Part shown: one piece after another, positions 49,650-58,005 of the stretch
Layout: every line of letters begins with the position of its first letter
Position numbering within the stretch: position 1 is the first letter of the stretch
Origin: Entophlyctis helioformis
Taxonomy: Eukaryota > Chytridiomycota > Chytridiomycetes > Chytridiales > Chytriomycetaceae
DNA: 64,000 nt
Direction of reading: 5' to 3'
NCBI GenBank assembly: GCA_025526915.1
Contig: JAHLKH010000129.1
Location: 16,237 to 80,236, forward strand
Program-made: the position numbers and the translations under genes
The notes under the pieces: generated by a model
Told to the model about the DNA's origin: nothing
The model's input: only the letters and a program-made list of their open reading frames with translations
Databases searched by the model: none

Positions 49650-49886
49650 CCGCGTCCTGCAATGAACGCAACTGCCTTCTTCCGGCCCGATAAAGATACA
49701 ATTACCAAGCATTTTGGAGTTAAATTCGACCCGAGAGGCGTCGAATGGAAGCCCGCATATCACACGATGGAAGGTTCGAGTCAGCAACGAGCATGCGACG
49801 ACAGGCGGGCGAGGCACATCCAACGAGGGTCTTACCTTTATCGTTAGAAAAAGTGACCCGTTAGGTCGATCGGGAGGTGCCCCGAT
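49650..49886 (-). ncRNA. Candidate guide-RNA (fRNA/omega-RNA-like) region after the Fanzor stop
   Basis: The 237 bases directly downstream of the Fanzor-type stop codon are more AT-rich than their surroundings (for example 49690-49725). They contain a perfect 6-bp hairpin ATCGGG-AGGTGC-CCCGAT at 49868-49885 and, on the gene strand, a TTTTT run near 49849-49853. In known Fanzor and TnpB loci the guide RNA comes from this position and overlaps the end of the ORF. No further structure or conservation can be shown here, so this is a positional prediction. Short frames crossing it in both directions look like chance. Confidence 0.3.
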
Positions 49887-50380
49887 TCAAAGTTGGTAGT
49901 CAAACAAGTCACTGTGTGGGATGCAGGTCAAGTGACTTGAGGGCAGGCTGTCTGCGTGTTGGTCGCAGCTGGTCGACGGATGGACCGTGTCTTGAACGCC
50001 ACAGGACGGCAGGCTGATCTGGTCCCATGTGGCCACATGCGACTTGAAGTGTTTCCGCGTTTGAGGCTGTGGGACAACAGACGGAGCATTTCGTGCACGC
50101 AGCTGGATGGAGATATGCATTGCCTCGATGTCTGCAAGGTACTCTGACGTGGCTGGATTGCTGTCGGCTTTGGTGTGCGTCAAGTAGAGCGGCCGGTGTC
50201 CAAAGAGCAGATGCCACAGTGCGACCATCCCGATGTTGGTGGCTCCAAGCACGTCTCGGTGGTAGACGGTCTTGCATGGTATGCACTCGTAGCGTCGCAG
50301 GTTGGTGCGGTTCTCGTATGGGATCCGCTGCTTGCACTGCGGGCACATCTGGCTGGTCAGGTTCTCATTGCAGCGGTAGA

Positions 50381-50431
<51 letters not shown>

Positions 50432-53400
50432 ATGATCGTGTGTCAGTTGGTGCACAGATGAATGGATGGATGGATGGACAGCATGGCATCAGACGCACAT
50501 AGGCATATCCAGATGACCGCAGATGCCTGATGAGAAACCTCTCAAACACAGCGTGCCGGCCACCTTGACCTGTAAAGTCAATGCCAAATGCCCAGACAAC
50601 GGGAATGTCCTTCTCTGTTGGCTTGTCACAGCGGCCTTGAGAAGCAGCAGATGCGCGCTCTCCAGTGGTCGAGCCTGCCAGCTGCATGATGCCCTCGAGA
50701 GCGTGTCCGCGATCAGACGTGCGGCTGCTGCGCATGGTGAACCGCTTGGCCTTGACCTTCTGTGGAATGCCATGCCATGCCATGCCATCCAGTGCGATCA
50801 GCAGGCGATCAAGCAGCATGGCGGTCATGTCAATGGGCATCCAGAAACAGAGAAAACGTACCCGTGCATTCAGGAATGGCGTGCAGTACGCATGGCAGCG
50901 CAGATCCCAAAAGGCTCTCTCGCCTGCTGTGGCGTTTGGATCGGCATGCTTTGCTGTCTTGAATGCAATGGCCGCCTGGATGTCGAACGCCTTGGCATAT
51001 CGATTGTTGAACCTGGCACAAGAGGCAGGCACTGTGAGTTGATCTGGTCAAGAGTGCGCGTGGCAGAGTCATTGCATGCATACCACCGCTGAAAGTCACG
51101 CTCAGCTTGAAACATGCCAGAGGAGAGCACGTAGTTGGCCTCGAGCGTATACGAAAAGTCTCTGAGATCGACCAAGATGCTGGACGCGCCATACATGTAC
51201 CGCTGGCCCCAATCAAAGCTGACAACACGAACAGTCTGGTAGCCTTGGTCAGTGAACAGATTGTTGGCGTTGATGATGTCGCGCAGTCGCTGCGAGGCGT
51301 AGAAGCTGAGCTTGCCCTGTCATGCCATGGCATGAGTGAGGAATGCCAATGCATGTGCACCAATGCGCGAGTTTAGCATGCAAGTGGCTTACAGGATTGG
51401 GCGTGTATGGCTTGGCGGCTGACGGGTTGGCTGGATTGGCGGCTGTGGATGGCATGTCAGTCGGTGTGGACAACAAGTGTGCGTCTGGATTGGCACAGCA
51501 ACTCACATTCGCCATTAATGTAATCGGGCTCGCCATCAGCCTCGTCAACAAGCCACGGCTGCTCGCCTGAAGACGCCGTGTTGGGATCTGCAGAGCAAGG
51601 CAGTGGTCAGAATCAATGTGTGCACCATCGCATTCAAGCACACCACATACACCAAGGTGACTCTGGACGGTTTGTGCGGCAGTCCAGTGCCAGCTGGTAG
51701 ATGCTGTATCCATCCGTCATGATGCTGCCAAGTAGGATCGCCTTGGCTGGTCTTGCTGGACGCACAGCATCAATCACAGCCTTGATATGCTTCTCGCGCT
51801 CCTTGCCATCCAGACCCTGCTCATCGGCCTCTCGCGTCGCCTTGGCTGTGGCATCGGCAACCGCGTCCATCTCATCTTTGGCTTCTGAAGGTGTCTGGAA
51901 GCGACCTTTCTTGGGCCGGAGACCTGGGAGAAGGATGTCAAAGATGCAAACCTCGCGACTTGCGCTGAATGCGTCTTGGATGTCCTTGTTGGATGACGCA
52001 AGAGCTGACTTGGCATCTTTGTAGCCTTGGAGAAAAGTGCAGAGTCAGCATCAAATTGTGTACACATGGCATATACAGGCAGTGCGACCAACCAAGTGCA
52101 GCCAGAAGCTGTAGTCTCAATGCCTGCAAAGCAGGATCCTGATTGCCACGGATGCGCTCATCCTTTGTCCTCATCACCGCCCAAAAGAGGGTGGTCTCAG
52201 TGATGAGGACAAACGGATCGCGGCCTGCAGGCTGCGGACACAACTTGAGGGATGAGCCTGCGAGATCACACAACTGCTTGAACTTGCCGGCCTCTGACAG
52301 CGACTTGTTGCGCACAACCGCCGTGAGCCTGTGCAGTGCTTGTGGGATCTCAACAACGCGTCCGTCTTGTCTGGTCGACAGTGGCGTGCCAGACGTGGCG
52401 TCCCCGGTGGCTGTATCCATTGCCTTGGCAAATTCCGCTGCCTTGTCAGCAGATATACCAGGAATCAGTCGGTGGATTGCCCAGTCAATGAGCATCGACT
52501 GGTGGGTCATGAAGTGCACAGCAAGCATGCCACAGATGCCCCGTGCCAGATTTTTGTAGATGTCGTTCCGAGCAGCTGCACACAAACTGTCGTCAAGCCT
52601 GCCAGGCAAAACGGCATGCATCGTGCTTGCGTCCATGTGCACAATGGCTGACAGCAATGAGCCGGCCTGCGTCGCGTCCATCTTGGCTGCCCGCGCCACA
52701 CCAGCCCGCATCTTGGTCATGCTGTCCCGGATCATCTGCTGCGTCCATTCGCGGTTGATGATCATCTGCATGACCGTCACAATCCACGAGTGGGCCACAT
52801 GCTTTGTTGCCCGCGGCATGACCGACTCCTGACCGGTGAGAATGTAGCCCAGGTATCGCAGAAGCATCGTGACGGCTCCCTCGCCACTAGAGGTGCTGTT
52901 TGTGAGCACCTTGAGCAGATCATTTGCCGATGGTACTGCCCGTTGTAGTGGTGGCTCGATGGCTGGTGGTTGGGCATCGGTGCTGCTGGATGCGGCGGCT
53001 ACTGCTGCTGGTGCTGCTGTTGCTACTGCTGGTGCTGTGTCGTCGGTGAAGGTGCAGATCTTGACCATTGTGCCCGCCTCAAGTCTCACCAAGTCGCCAT
53101 AGTGAGCAATGTCGGTGTTGCTGCAGAGCGGGCCTTCGCCGTACATGCGCCGGGCATTAACTGGCCATCTGAGGACGCATCCAGCGGCGTAGAGCCACGC
53201 GCTCTCATCCTTGAAGTGATCAGGATCAATATACACATATTCCATCTCACCATTCCTCCTGGCCTCCATGACGCAGAACTTGAGTGGCAGCGGTGCATCT
53301 GGGTCAAGTGCGACGAGCTCTTTGACGATGGCGCCGATCATAGTGATGCATGCACGCCGCACGTCGGCCGTGTATCGGTACACGCCATTGAAGATGCTTT

Positions 53401-56400
53401 CTGAAAGTGAACCGCGGGTCTGTGTTGCCGGCGCCGTCTTGGCCTGGCGTCCAAAATACTTTGCAAGCATTGGATCTCCAGAGAGCATTTCCTGTGTGTA
53501 GCACAAGTCAACATACACAAAGCCAGACATGCAGAGCAACATGGCAATCCAAACTCATACCTCCATTTTGACAATCTGCTCAGGGCGATCGTATGTGCTC
53601 TCCACTGGCCTTGCCTCATTGCCATGGATGGCAGCAGCAGCTGTCATGACTGGCAATGCCATCATGCGGTGGATCTTTTCAAGCATCTGCTCTATCGCCG
53701 ATCTTTCACCACGCTCGTATCTGTCAAAGAACGCACCGGTCAGCACACACACTCAAGGCACATGCCATGCCATATGCCACTTACGCCCGTGTCTCGTCCT
53801 CAGATGGAGCCTGGCGGGCTTGCCTGCTTGCATCCTTCTTGTGCTCCTGGATGAACTTCTTGGTCTTGGCCTTCTCAGCTCGCTCAGCTCGCTCCTTATC
53901 ACACTCAGCCTGCATGGCCGGTGTGACCAGGTATGGATCCTGCCGTGGTTGAATGCAATGTTAGGCATGCATCTTGAATGTGCACAAGATGCTCGCAATC
54001 ACAAGCCTGCAGTTCAACTCACAGTCGTCCTTGTGTCTTGAAGCACACCAATGTGAAAGACCTTGTCGCAATCTGTGCCTCTATCATCTGCGGCTCGAGG
54101 TGGCAGCAGCATCTTGCATGGTTTTGGTGGCTTGACGGCCTGTTGAGTGGAAGGATAAGCAATCGCAGCAAGCCGTCACATGCAAACAGAGCCAGCAAAT
54201 GCAAAGACGCACCGGTACTCGATTGATAATCGACTGCAGCATCTGCTTTGCTTGGTCATAACACTCGCCAAATTCTGACACTTGGAAATCAGCATGCCTG
54301 ACATCCGTTGGGTTTGTCAGGGCATTGAGCGTCTTTATGGCCGTTTCGCGAATATCGGCAACAGCTTCTGGGGTCGCAATCCGTGTGCTCCTTCTGAGCG
54401 GCTGCTTTGTCTTTTTACCCTTGACTGTCACACAAATGCCGTGATCAGTGGTGAATACACAATGCCACACTGTGTCAACCCGTGCAGAGCAACCTGGCTT
54501 TTTAGACGCCTGAAAGATGCGCATTTCAAGCCTGGATACTTCTTGAGCCGCTCATTCAGTCTTGCTATCACCTTCTGCTCGCCCAGTAATGGATCAAGCC
54601 GGCAGCATTGAAGATCAGCAACAGCATGCAGTGGACAGCCAAGACACGCATCCAAGCCTCGCAAAACCCACCAATGCTGATAAAGAATCTTGCCAGCCGG
54701 GCTGAGCCTTGCATATGCTTCTTTAGCGATACGCCAGTCATGCACAGCCTGCAGCAGCTGCTTGCTTGCATTCTCGCAGATATCAGCAAGGATGTCGCGG
54801 CCGTTGAGAATGTCGTTGGCGAGGAGGTCTGCCGTGCATCGGAGAACGCAGCTAAACACGACACGGCAGCCATTGAGCATGACAAAAACGTCGTCCAGTC
54901 GCCTTGTGTTGACAATGTGCTTGGCGAGCACCATGACTTCATCCCGTGTAAGGTGCCAAACCGCACCACTGGCATTGCCCTTCAGCTGCTGTGCCGTGTG
55001 GCTCAAGCAGCAGCCACTGCGGCCGTGCATGCAGAGGCAGATCTGCCAGTGGCATCCATCAGAGTCAGTGCCATGAGAATCCTCCAGAGATCACAAGCAC
55101 GCCTACTTTTTTCGAGCCGAGGCGGCCCTGTTGGCAGTCCTGCTGTTGCCATTGGATGATGCATGCATTCATGTCAATGCCATGCTGTCCAAGTGCATCC
55201 AAAGCAAGACTTACAGCGGTATCATTTGAGCAAAAACATCCCCATAACAACCATGGCTTTGGTCTGTGAACTCTCCAATATCCGCTCCAGTTTCGTCACG
55301 GTCGAGAAACACCGCGAAGGCATTGCTGAACGATTGAGCAAGAGGCTTGCCGCCAATCTTGTACATCTGCAACATAAATGAGGCCTTGAAGACGTCCACA
55401 AACATCCTGGCAAGGTCTGGGTCTTGCAGGCGTTGACAGAACTCTGCGACAGTGATCCCTGCCCATGTTGCCTCAAAACGAATGCATGCCATAATGCACT
55501 TTGCAGCCGTGACGATCCCTTGCAAGTCATCATTGCAGCATCACGAGTAAGTCAAGGTCGCAGCGCATGGCATCCAAAATTGCAAAGCAGGCAAGCCAAC
55601 TTACCAATCTCATCACAATGAAAATAGTCATTTCTCGCTGCGGCTGCCGCCAACCGGCAGATGTCAAGAATCTCTGGCAAGTCAAAGGTGGCTGCAATAG
55701 ATGCTACACCTGGGTGGTTGTACGATCTCATCTGTGCAATCTGTCTGCCGCGCATTTGCAGCAGCAGGACAGGGCAAATAGCCGGCACAATGAAAGATGA
55801 GGTCGGTATCACCACTGATGACGACGACTGGCACATTGCTGTCAAGAAAGGCGTCGTGAGCCATGGATTGGAGAGGCATGCAGAAGATCCAACCAACCTT
55901 GCTTCGCGCACACGGCATGCAATGCAAACATCCGCCTCATTCTTGCAAAGGCACACAGATGACCCTTCCCCAAAGTATCCAAGAAGACCCCCAATGGCCC
56001 CACAGATTGCCGCCTTACGCTCGCATGTCAATGGAAACGCCCACTGGAGTGACTGGATCTCGTCCCTGGAAGGCACTCAGTCAGCACGGCATGCAAATCA
56101 ACAGCAGCAAGTGGCATACTTTGTGAGCCTGTTGCCTTTCTGGTCTGCTTTTCGCTTGGCCACCATTGTCTGGATTGACAATGCTGCTTCCAAATTTACC
56201 CGTGCCCGCTCAGTGCGGACAGCCTTGATTTGGTGTTGAGAAGCGAGCCATCGACATGGAGCCGGACCGTGTGGAGCTTTCCAATCGATGCTGCGAGGCT
56301 GGCAATGAGCGGCTCGAGTGTCGGCGTCCAGTTTTCCTCTGGCTGTGCCAGCAGTATTGGTGCTGCTTTGTAGATATCGCCGGCAAAAAGACTGAGAACG

Positions 56401-56568
56401 TCCACATGCACAACACACTGGATGGGCGGACGCTCTTGTGTTGTGCTGCTGCAGTGTTTGAGGGGGCTGTACCACGACCTGAATTGCACCCGAGAGAGGG
56501 TTTGTGGGATCAAGGTTTTGCTACCACCTGCTTTGTCGATGGGAGGAGTCGCGCCGACGACTCCCCAT
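49887..56568 (-). CDS. XPG/FEN1-like nuclease joined to Fanzor (TnpB-like) RNA-guided nuclease
   Basis: Long spliced gene of roughly 20 exons. 5' half, XPG superfamily: MG start at 56568; CVVHVDVLSLFAGD and LHVDGSLLNTK (XPG-N, 56240-56430); KNEADVCIACRVREA (XPG-I, 55890-55950); VVVISGDTDLIFH (55790-55825); and ARNDYFHCDEI-GGIVTAAKCI across an intron at 55500-55640, like the H3TH motif of FEN1. Middle: helical, charged segments (54080-55030, 53550-53960) and a large exon at 51938-53500. 3' half, TnpB/Fanzor: SIMTDGYSIYQLAL (51710), RuvC-I VVSFDWGQRYMYGAS (51190-51230), VVWAFGIDFTG at the RuvC-II position (50570-50605), then NLTSQMCPQCKQRI ... YECIPCKTVYHRDVLGATNI (50230-50360), a zinc ribbon plus RuvC-III. 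Intron joins I checked between 56 and 50 kb are in phase, with no stop-start gap. At least three homopolymer frameshifts (near 56229, 55760, 55215) interrupt the XPG part. Confidence 0.65.
50383..50430. repeat. (TG)24 microsatellite in a Fanzor-gene intron
   Basis: Forty-eight bases of perfect TG dinucleotide lie immediately upstream (on the gene strand) of the zinc-ribbon exon. On the gene strand this is a CA run ending in the acceptor CAG. Confidence 0.95.
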
Positions 56569-56984
56569 GCGTGTTGGGCGTGCTTGTTGGTTTGTTGTTG
56601 CGTGTTGTTGTGTGTCGTGGCAAGTCGCGATCTGGTGTTTGTTTGCATTGACATGCTCTGATTGTTTGGCAGCAATGCATGGAGCACTGGTCTGTGTGTG
56701 TGGAATGGCATGCTCCTCAGAGAGAGAGAAGGAGAGCGTTGCACATGACTATGCATTCGCCCCTCTTTATTCATGGAGGACACACACGCACGGCCCAGCG
56801 AGACAGCAGGCGCTGCTCCTGCACCACGGCCGTTGCTGTGCTCGCATCGCGCAGTGTCAGCACTGTCGCAAGGGCTCTCTAGATCGGACCAATCACAGCG
56901 ATTCCACCAGGATTGACCAATCACAGCAATTCCACCAGGGGTAATGGTATGAGAACCGGGCCGAACTTTGCCCTCAGTCACAAC
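56569..56984. other. Divergent region between Fanzor-type gene and EROS-like gene
   Basis: 416 bp without coding evidence. On the minus side just upstream of ATG 56568 the sequence is rich in CAACA/ACAAC triplets, as in a 5' UTR. On the plus side it carries the CCAAT repeat listed separately. Confidence 0.5.
56887..56939 (+). promoter_or_regulatory. Tandem CCAAT-box repeat upstream of the EROS-like gene
   Basis: A 25-base unit, GACCAATCACAGCRATTCCACCAGG, occurs twice (56887-56911 and 56915-56939) with one mismatch. Each copy has CCAATCA, the binding site of HAP/NF-Y. Distance to the start codon is about 45-100 bp. Confidence 0.55.
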
Positions 56985-58005
56985 ATGAACGTGTTGGCGG
57001 AAATGCGACGCATTGCGCCGCGAGTCGAGCGCTCAGACGACAGACTGTCTGTCTGCGCCATTGAGCCACGGCTGGGCGACTTTGTTGTTGCTGGGTGGTG
57101 TCACTGGTGAGCGATGTGGAGTGGGCATGCAGGCTCTGTGCCGACGAGGATGCCGTTCGCTTGCTCGAGTCACTGACACGGTGCCACCTCGCGCACTTGT
57201 CTGGGCCGTTTGCCGACGGATGGGCGATGCATCTGCGACAACGCAACGCAATGGGCATGCCATGGACGTGCGGTAGCTCGGGGCGGCGGCGTGCTACTAC
57301 ACAACCACCGGCTTGACGCAGTTTGGCCTTTCGTTTGTGCTGTTTGTGGTGCTCGCATACTCGCTCATCGACGACACGTTCGAGGTGCTCATTGACAAGA
57401 CGATCGGCCAAGTCTCGGTGACCAAGAAGAAGCTGGGCCGCATCAAGTGGATCCGTGTGTCCCAGGCAGACGAGCTTGTGAATGTATGTGCCGTGCAAGT
57501 GCCGTGCTGATGGCGTGGCACTCATCGCCAAGACTGTGTGGCAACACGGACAGTGCGAAGTCGTGACCACCAAGGAGCGGAATCTGACATCGCACAGGTA
57601 CACCGCCTGCCGTATGCCTGCCGTGTGCCTGCCGACCTGCCTGCCATTGGATCCGTGCATAAGATCATTGCCACCTGGCTGCGGGTTCTCTGCTGACAGA
57701 TCTGCCGCACATGCATGCATCAACTGGATAACATCGCGGTGGCTGGATGCCGCTTGGGCCATTGCCGACGGGCTGCAGACTGGAGCTGGAGTTTATGAGC
57801 GACATGGGCTACTACCGCATGCCCATGGCAGAGAGCACGGTCGTGGGCGAATTACAACAAGGGAAAGCTGGAAGAGGTTGCGGCCATTGTGATCGACTAC
57901 ATGAAGCTCAAGCCCCTGCCGGCCCGCTCTCAAGGAAGAGAGCCTGGCTGCCAAGCTGCCGCCGCGATCCCGCCCTGTCAAGCCCACAAAGAAGAGAGAA
58001 TAGGA
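56985..58005 (+). CDS. CYBC1/EROS-like membrane protein
   Basis: Spliced gene beginning MNVLAEMRRIAPRVERSDDR at 56985. A following exon gives YYTTTGLTQFGLSFVLFVVLAYSLIDDTFEVLIDKTIGQV (57290-57410), a hydrophobic hairpin then VLIDKTIGQVSVTKKKLGRI, which mirrors the TM region and the FDKSTGKVVLKT segment of CYBC1/EROS, the chaperone of NADPH oxidase gp91phox. Later exons read VALIAKTVWQHGQCEVVTTK, LEFMSDMGYYRMPMAESTVVG and VAAIVIDYMKLKPLPAR, a PH-like beta domain. A small frame change near 57935 is needed to reach the basic end (VKPTKKRE, stop 58005). Similarity is moderate and exon borders in 57100-57290 are unclear. If right, it suggests this organism has a Nox-type oxidase. Confidence 0.5.

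Follow-up and report, generated by a model that had tools for sequence, protein, structure and literature searches.

A transposon gene of the chytrid Entophlyctis helioformis that apparently joins an XPG/FEN-type nuclease to a Fanzor/TnpB-like nuclease

Introduction

Does a single gene of the chytrid fungus Entophlyctis helioformis encode both a structure-specific nuclease of the XPG/FEN type and a Fanzor/TnpB-like nuclease, and in what kind of genetic setting does such a gene lie? The question is raised by a stretch of 64,000 nt (C129:16237-80236; contig JAHLKH010000129.1 of assembly GCA_025526915.1, called the window hereafter) of a 29.57-Mb, 482-contig assembly, where a first-pass annotation, made from the letters alone, read one fused gene on the minus strand. 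As analysed below, one fused XPG and TnpB/Fanzor-type protein is strongly supported by sequence comparison as a real gene family, and its gene lies in a transposon with terminal inverted repeats (TIRs). The reading that we prefer, to which we give a probability of about 0.72, is that the two nucleases are fused and that the protein probably cleaves under RNA guidance, no matter which enzyme brings about transposition; the rival explanations considered below overlap with this reading. The first-pass picture of the gene had overlooked both the high-copy TIR transposon around it and the frameshifts in the window copy.

Gene model and the join between the two halves

The gene model is that of copy C139, the sequence of which was joined from overlapping loci. 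Obtained by an ab initio pass followed by hand curation, it has 18 exons in an uninterrupted frame of 1761 amino acids (aa), with 17 introns that are all GT-AG; it is least certain at the acceptors of exons 7 and 12 and in the 179-nt intron (C139 2287-2465). Projected onto the window (Table 1), the model runs on the minus strand from an ATG at 56568 to a stop at 49887, which is exactly the span given by the annotation, and the motif order that had been read there (DG, NEADVCI, ISGDTDLIF, RNDY, the H3TH-like exon, SFDWGQR, CPQC/CIPC and HRDVLGATNI) is present. It had also been claimed that every join keeps phase. This holds for the splice sites, all 17 GT and AG sites of the C139 model being present in the window copy, but not for the frame itself, which is broken relative to C139 by seven 1-bp exonic indels: four in exon 1 (56566, 56514, 56437 and 56230), +1 in exon 3 (55778) and -1 at each of 54678 and 54491 in linker exons 6-7. 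At least three of them (55778, 54678 and 54491) lie at or beside positions that are variable among other copies and therefore fit a collapsed-repeat consensus, decay being another possible origin. The window copy is broken or mis-assembled, and is not an intact member of the family.

The join between the two nucleases is in phase in all seven divergent copies compared, namely C139 and L065-L070, the latter six being members of other families and ~32-54% identical to the window over the listed middle-exon pieces. In each of the seven the frame of the H3TH exon runs into an in-frame stop. This stop is what would be expected if separate XPG and TnpB-like genes were neighbours in one transposon and their fusion an artefact of the splice model, an explanation that is favoured also by the GC donor needed at four of the seven joins (L066-L069; the donor is GT in C139, L065 and L070). 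By contrast, a donor (GTAAGT, GTATGT or GCAAG[TA]) precedes the stop or overlaps with it in seven of seven copies, with the same leftover phase each time, and behind the donor come a small exon (36 nt in C139, 30-66 nt in the other six) and then the next exon, with base sums that fit in all seven. It is noted that the acceptors were picked by hand with phase in view, and therefore the constant two-base donor leftover is a stronger part of this evidence than the phase sum alone. Moreover, gene predictions made by others in Mortierellomycota and in an aphelid are single proteins. With the in-phase joins in seven of seven copies and the fused proteins elsewhere, two separate genes are rejected, and we regard the splice-artefact explanation as extremely improbable.

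The same order is seen across the genome. Among the matches listed, a RuvC-III exon lies on the same strand 5.1-12.7 kb downstream of 78 of the 132 H3TH exons, with none upstream and one on the opposite strand; by eye, the list of own-genome PF07282 matches links a further 11 H3TH exons to RuvC-III. The remaining 43 are unlinked within 14 kb, some being near contig ends and some maybe decayed or outside the matches listed.

Fused homologues in other fungi

A protein search with the C-terminal part of C139 gave one relative, Benniella P0001 (1174 aa), which carries Cas12f1-like_TNB (4.7e-13) and XPG_I at E=2.6e-4, under the curated cut-off. A search with the RuvC part of P0001 then gave 71 proteins: two from Amoeboaphelidium (Aphelidiomycota), the unnamed P0058, and the rest from Mortierella-type genera. 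Benniella and Gryganskiella belong to Mortierellomycota by look-up, and the other Mortierella-type genera we take to belong there too. A later protein search with A1, an alignment of the fused family, gave at least five proteins.

Two profiles derived from A1, one for each half, both match in 56 of 76 proteins (75 found plus C139), a test that is circular for the members of A1, to which C139 does not belong; XPG comes first in 56 of 56, and two of the 76 match the XPG profile only. Homologues in which the two halves are always independent genes would have spoken for separate genes; the opposite was found. Of eight proteins scanned, P0014, P0015 and P0019 pass the Pfam cut-offs for both XPG_I and Cas12f1-like_TNB, and XPG_I is under the cut-off in P0017, P0010 and P0044. 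For the aphelid proteins, Pfam gives P0067 no more than a weak XPG_N (E=0.0035, under the cut-off) and P0068 no XPG domain; NCBIfam fen_arch is matched at 5e-4 in P0067 and 4e-3 in P0068. NCBIfam guided_TnpB and fen_arch occur together in P0001, P0014 and P0019, under the curated cut-offs. In the viral_contigs set, searched with A1, none of 38 pattern matches was confirmed as a relative, and a limited literature search found no published fusion of XPG with Fanzor/TnpB.

Active sites of the two halves

In the XPG half of C139 all seven acidic residues are kept: D56, D106, E193, D195, D216, D218 and D276. These positions, in C139 and in A1, are presumably those of the FEN1 active-site residues. 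In the non-gap rows of A1 the corresponding columns hold D 24/25, D 33/34, E 35/36, D 36/37, D 34/39, D 40/40 and D 41/42, the acidic columns being kept at 87-100%. In hhalign, residues 47-365 of C139 align with the XPG part of the fused fungal proteins (96.8%, E=2.1e-10), and this half matches the A1-derived hidden Markov model (HMM) at E=8e-10, with no match in 20 shuffles. In the Protein Data Bank (PDB), the fused-family profile matches Rad2 (1.4e-13), FEN1 (4.6e-11) and human XPG (7.9e-10). The domain calls of the annotation fared differently in profile searches: Cas12f1-like_TNB (PF07282) is found directly in the last exon at E=2.9e-9, whereas the XPG half of the window family alone stays under the Pfam cut-off (XPG_I_2, E=0.11, on a rough hand-joined window translation) and was matched via the fungal profile. 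The own genome has four XPG_I matches, none of them at the sites listed for the XPG exon of the transposon gene. As a separate observation, own-genome XPG_I matches at C2:291198-292772 have a RuvC-III fragment of the transposon family ~1 kb away on the opposite strand.

In the RuvC half of C139 the D-E-D triad is kept, and in A1 its columns hold D 50/50, E 42/47 and D 44/45 of the non-gap rows. Residues 1146-1672 of C139 align with A1 (hhalign 99.3%, E=3.5e-20), and the half matches the A1-derived HMM at E=6e-22, again with no match in 20 shuffles; the fused-family profile matches the TnpB-like LaTranC in the PDB at 5.6e-4. The identity of this half as a Fanzor was then compared with two definitions. 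The 2013 definition, as an excerpt of its source has it, is D-X(125,275)-[TS][TS]XX-C4 zinc finger-X(5,50)-RD (PMC3627910), and C139 has D1417, TS 1606-1607, CPQC/CIPC and RD 1639-1640. The 2023 signature, likewise from an excerpt, is an alternative RuvC-II glutamate six residues before the zinc finger together with a nearly exclusive DPG at RuvC-I (PMC10711439). The alternative glutamate is E1603 of C139 and is present in 42 of 47 non-gap A1 rows. The TDG motif is seen as MTDGYS (D1318) in C139, aligned with the TDG of the fungal family (A1: T 48, D 39, G 49 of 50); in Fanzor1 it belongs to the WED domain, in which it may lie here too. DPG is missing, as detailed in the Discussion, and no PDB chain named Fanzor was matched by the C139 half or by profiles A1 and A2, the Fanzor content of the PDB set being unchecked and distant relatives being missed by such a search. 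Because of these two points the strict Fanzor label is not settled, and we call this half Fanzor/TnpB-like.

By analogy we infer that the C-terminal half may be RNA-guided. The alternative is that a TnpB-derived RuvC domain has been turned into an ordinary DNA nuclease, or into a module that binds DNA. This would be in keeping with the D-hydrophobic-G in place of DPG, with the PDB result just given, with a far longer middle region in the window family, and with the weak RNA signal: the consensus fold of the last 200 nt is modestly better than that of shuffled columns (z -2.2, reached by 2 of 100 shuffles), and that of the 200 nt around the stop codon has z -3.4, reached by none of 100. The retention of the D-E-D triad, the alternative-glutamate position, the zinc ribbon and the TDG motif argues against such a re-use, which we consider unlikely.

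The transposon

When the window was compared by blastn with 64 loci, similarity stopped sharply at ~49684, and also at ~56962 in many copies. The element so delimited ends in imperfect TIRs of ~25 bp, the 5' end sharing 19 of its 25 bases with the more frequent form of the 3' end and 17 of 25 with the window copy's own 3' end. The end pattern, with at most three mismatches, has 255 matches genome-wide against two for the reversed control. Target-site duplications (TSDs) are of ~8 bp: among the 11 copies with both flanks in hand, the flanks agree at 6 or more of 8 positions in six, whereas mispaired flanks do so in 2 of 110 cases. When the boundary is set at GGCC, the agreement is 8/8 in C13, 7/8 in C139, C30, C60 and C186, and 6/8 in C69; it is weaker in C150 (5/8), C166 (4/8), C10 (3/8), the window copy (3/8) and C18 (2/8). 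The boundaries of C139, C60 and C166 were set manually, since the ends of these copies are altered.

The element is present at more than 100 genomic places, many of them partial. Own-genome matches number at least 177 for the middle exon, at least 150 for the RuvC-III exon and 138 for the H3TH-like exon, split pieces being counted, and span from 100% down to ~30% identity; PF07282 alone has at least 150. A single-copy host gene is ruled out, element copies being found all over the assembly.

Is the fused protein then the transposase itself, its XPG and RuvC sites excising and inserting the element with or without an RNA? The AcademX nuclease, which is an XPG nuclease, offers a comparison. The gene occupies 6.7 kb of the element's 7.28 kb and no second gene was noticed, antisense frames not having been searched for domains; the TIR ends compared by eye (part of 100 among the 255) adjoin exons of the transposon gene; and a six-frame search for a MULE transposase was negative, so that a MuDR partner was rejected, a domain split by introns being one that such a search could miss. 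Against this explanation, we know of no TnpB or Fanzor that acts as a transposase. AcademX, in the excerpted source, is likewise a nuclease-encoding transposon lineage, but its TSDs are of 3-4 bp, and those of AcademH of 9-10 bp (PMC10045372), against ~8 bp here; and Academ is classed, in a second excerpt, among the DDE/D superfamilies (PMC10294476), whereas the RuvC here is TnpB-like. Academ was rejected on the misfit of TSD length and is set apart by description, the sequences not having been compared. We consider it distinctly unlikely that the fused protein is the transposase. The more specific version, a self-sufficient RNA-guided transposition enzyme in which the Fanzor half would pick and open the site by guide RNA and the XPG half would make the second, structure-specific cut, with excision and insertion needing no DDE transposase, appears very unlikely.

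Table 1. Features of the transposon copy in the window (coordinates of the window)
Feature	Position	Strand	Basis or remark
Whole transposon copy	49684..56962	minus	~7279 bp; blastn against 64 loci, sharp stops at both borders
5' TIR GGCCCGGTTCTCATACCATTACCCC	56938..56962	minus	common to copies with unrelated flanks
Exon 1: start codon, XPG_N-like segment (HVDVLS, LHVDG)	56120..56568	minus	C139 model projected
Exon 2: XPG-I first part (NEADVCIA)	55898..56065	minus	C139 model
Exon 3: XPG-I second part (ISGDTDLIF, RNDY)	55605..55838	minus	C139 model; +1 bp at 55778 in window copy
Exon 4: H3TH-like region, XPG part ends	55215..55518	minus	in-frame stop behind exon overlaps splice donor
Exon 5: small linking exon, 36 nt, phase 2-2	55107..55142	minus	C139 model
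Exons 6-10: linker region	55016-54672, 54493-54213, 54139-54023, 53939-53785, 53720-53561	minus	C139 model
Exon 11: long middle region	52093..53491	minus	C139 model; no known domain found in Pfam scan
Exons 12-14, with TDG motif (MTDGYS)	52016-51651, 51587-51507, 51442-51393	minus	C139 model
Exons 15-17: RuvC-I (SFDWGQR), RuvC-II region (VVWAFGIDF)	51316-51084, 51012-50862, 50759-50499	minus	C139 model
Exon 18: NENLTS-CPQC...CIPC zinc ribbon, HRD RuvC-III, stop	49887..50381	minus	Pfam PF07282
3' non-coding end, highly similar from family to family; may hold a guide RNA	49684..49886	minus	
3' TIR TTGGTAATTGTATCTTTATCGGGCC (gene sense)	49684..49708	minus	

Selection and exchange between families

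The ratio of nonsynonymous to synonymous substitution rates (dN/dS) between C139 and each of C18, C60, C30 and the window copy is 0.14-0.34 for XPG, 0.35-0.47 for the middle and 0.33-0.44 for RuvC. Between C139 and family S2 (L065) it is 0.40 for XPG, 0.53 for exons 5-10, 0.44 for exon 11 and 0.27 for exons 12-14; for RuvC it is 0.75, with a dS of only 0.10. The ratio is thereby below 1 in both nuclease halves. Between families the body has diverged, and the blastn pieces of the 3' ~1.8 kb (RuvC exons, introns and 3' end) show 76-90% identity; in family S2 the 5' ~280 bp is conserved too. From one family to another, the element ends (49684-51549 and ~56680-56962) differ far less than the coding body does, and the families resemble mosaics with exchanged ends. 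The similarity of the ends takes in introns, and recombination between elements explains it better than coding constraint.

Discussion

In the mechanism that we propose as the most likely, the gene of a TIR DNA transposon encodes an N-terminal XPG/FEN-type structure-specific nuclease, a long linker and a C-terminal Fanzor/TnpB-like nuclease with RuvC and zinc ribbon. The C-terminal half, with a guide RNA from the 3' end of the element, would open an R-loop at a target, such as a site vacated by excision of the element, and its RuvC would cut the R-loop target. XPG relatives cut bubbles and 5' flaps, and the XPG half may cut displaced-strand or flap junctions of the R-loop. The break would favour copy-back of the element through homologous repair. 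The movement itself is probably brought about by a transposase acting in trans, because other Fanzor1 elements are known, from the excerpted source, to have TIRs without a transposase (PMC3627910).

Several findings weigh against this reading of the family and should be set beside it. Among the five complete subfamily copies (C139, window, C18, C60 and C30), exonic frameshifts are absent only from C139. The RuvC profile alone is matched in 18 of the 76 homologues, eight of which are named partial. Four of the seven joins use a GC donor and the acceptors were chosen by hand, as noted above, and a convincing TSD is missing in 5 of the 11 copies, the window copy among them. RuvC-I reads DWG or DLG and not DPG: DWG in the window and C139, DPG in only 3 of 50 A1 rows, with L 35, G 8, A 3, P 3 and M 1 of 50 at position +1. 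To these are added the weak signal of a structured 3' RNA and the lack of a match, within the limits given above, to a PDB chain named Fanzor. Weighing them against the intact C139, the in-phase joins in seven of seven copies and the like order in other fungi, we find that the single XPG and Fanzor-type fused protein proposed by the first-pass annotation is strongly supported; its Fanzor identity is supported in part, with the 2013 motif, the alternative glutamate and TDG on one side and the missing DPG and PDB match on the other.

Compared with known systems, the element can be set beside the Fanzor1 elements described in the excerpt of PMC3627910 (SPu-1 of Spizellomyces; the MuDR-like ROr-4, PBl-3 and MCi-4), in which, as here, a TIR element has a TnpB-like protein and no transposase; the D-X(125,275)-[TS][TS]XX-C4-X(5,50)-RD pattern, the alternative RuvC-II glutamate and the TDG motif are shared as well. 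It differs from them in having DWG/DLG for DPG, and in a 1761-aa protein with an N-terminal XPG nuclease against the 633 aa of SPu-1-1p. With XPG/Rad2/FEN1 it shares XPG_N-like, XPG-I and H3TH-like regions and the seven acidic positions, one E being replaced by D; unlike these it is not a host repair gene but multicopy, within a transposon and fused to a RuvC nuclease. With prokaryotic TnpB, including LaTranC, the RuvC-III and zinc ribbon are alignable (NCBIfam guided_TnpB E=1.4e-8, under the curated cut-off), whereas those proteins are without an XPG domain and have a few hundred aa (478 in the LaTranC chain).

The meaning of the finding is that two kinds of nuclease are apparently fused, with both active sites kept, not only in the window's organism but also in fungi from two or more phyla, and that the fused nucleases could act on two faces of one R-loop. 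This makes testable now the role of auxiliary nucleases for TnpB/Fanzor elements, the route from R-loop to break in eukaryotes and the existence of a ready-made two-nuclease RNA-guided tool. It also gives a coherent identity to Mortierellomycota entries named 'hypothetical protein' or 'Cas12f1-like TNB'.

Minor features of the element and its flanks

The 5' flank of the window copy (56970-57600) is common to C67:116171-116801 (100%) and C150:13959-14585 (98%), and its 3' flank matches nowhere else, the 3' flanks of the C67 and C150 copies differing; possible origins are a misassembly at repeats, recombination between copies or a rearrangement mediated by the element. At ~56880-56940 there are short subterminal repeats like CCTGGTGGAATCGCTGTGATTGGTCAA, the number of which differs between copies and which are possible protein-binding sites. 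The sequence ATTTGCCGGCGG stands directly after the element end in the 3' flank of six loci (L066, L067, L069, L070, L071 and L074), where it may mark an element extended at its 3' end or a favoured target.

A CA microsatellite in the last intron (50383-50430) differs in length between copies. In L055 and L060, similar insertions of ~185-275 bp within element copies represent another small repeat inserting there. Finally, L068 1-900 and L070 1-900, from two families, hold alike sequence upstream of the gene, perhaps belonging to a longer element, with open frames of 253 aa (L068) and 159 aa (L070).

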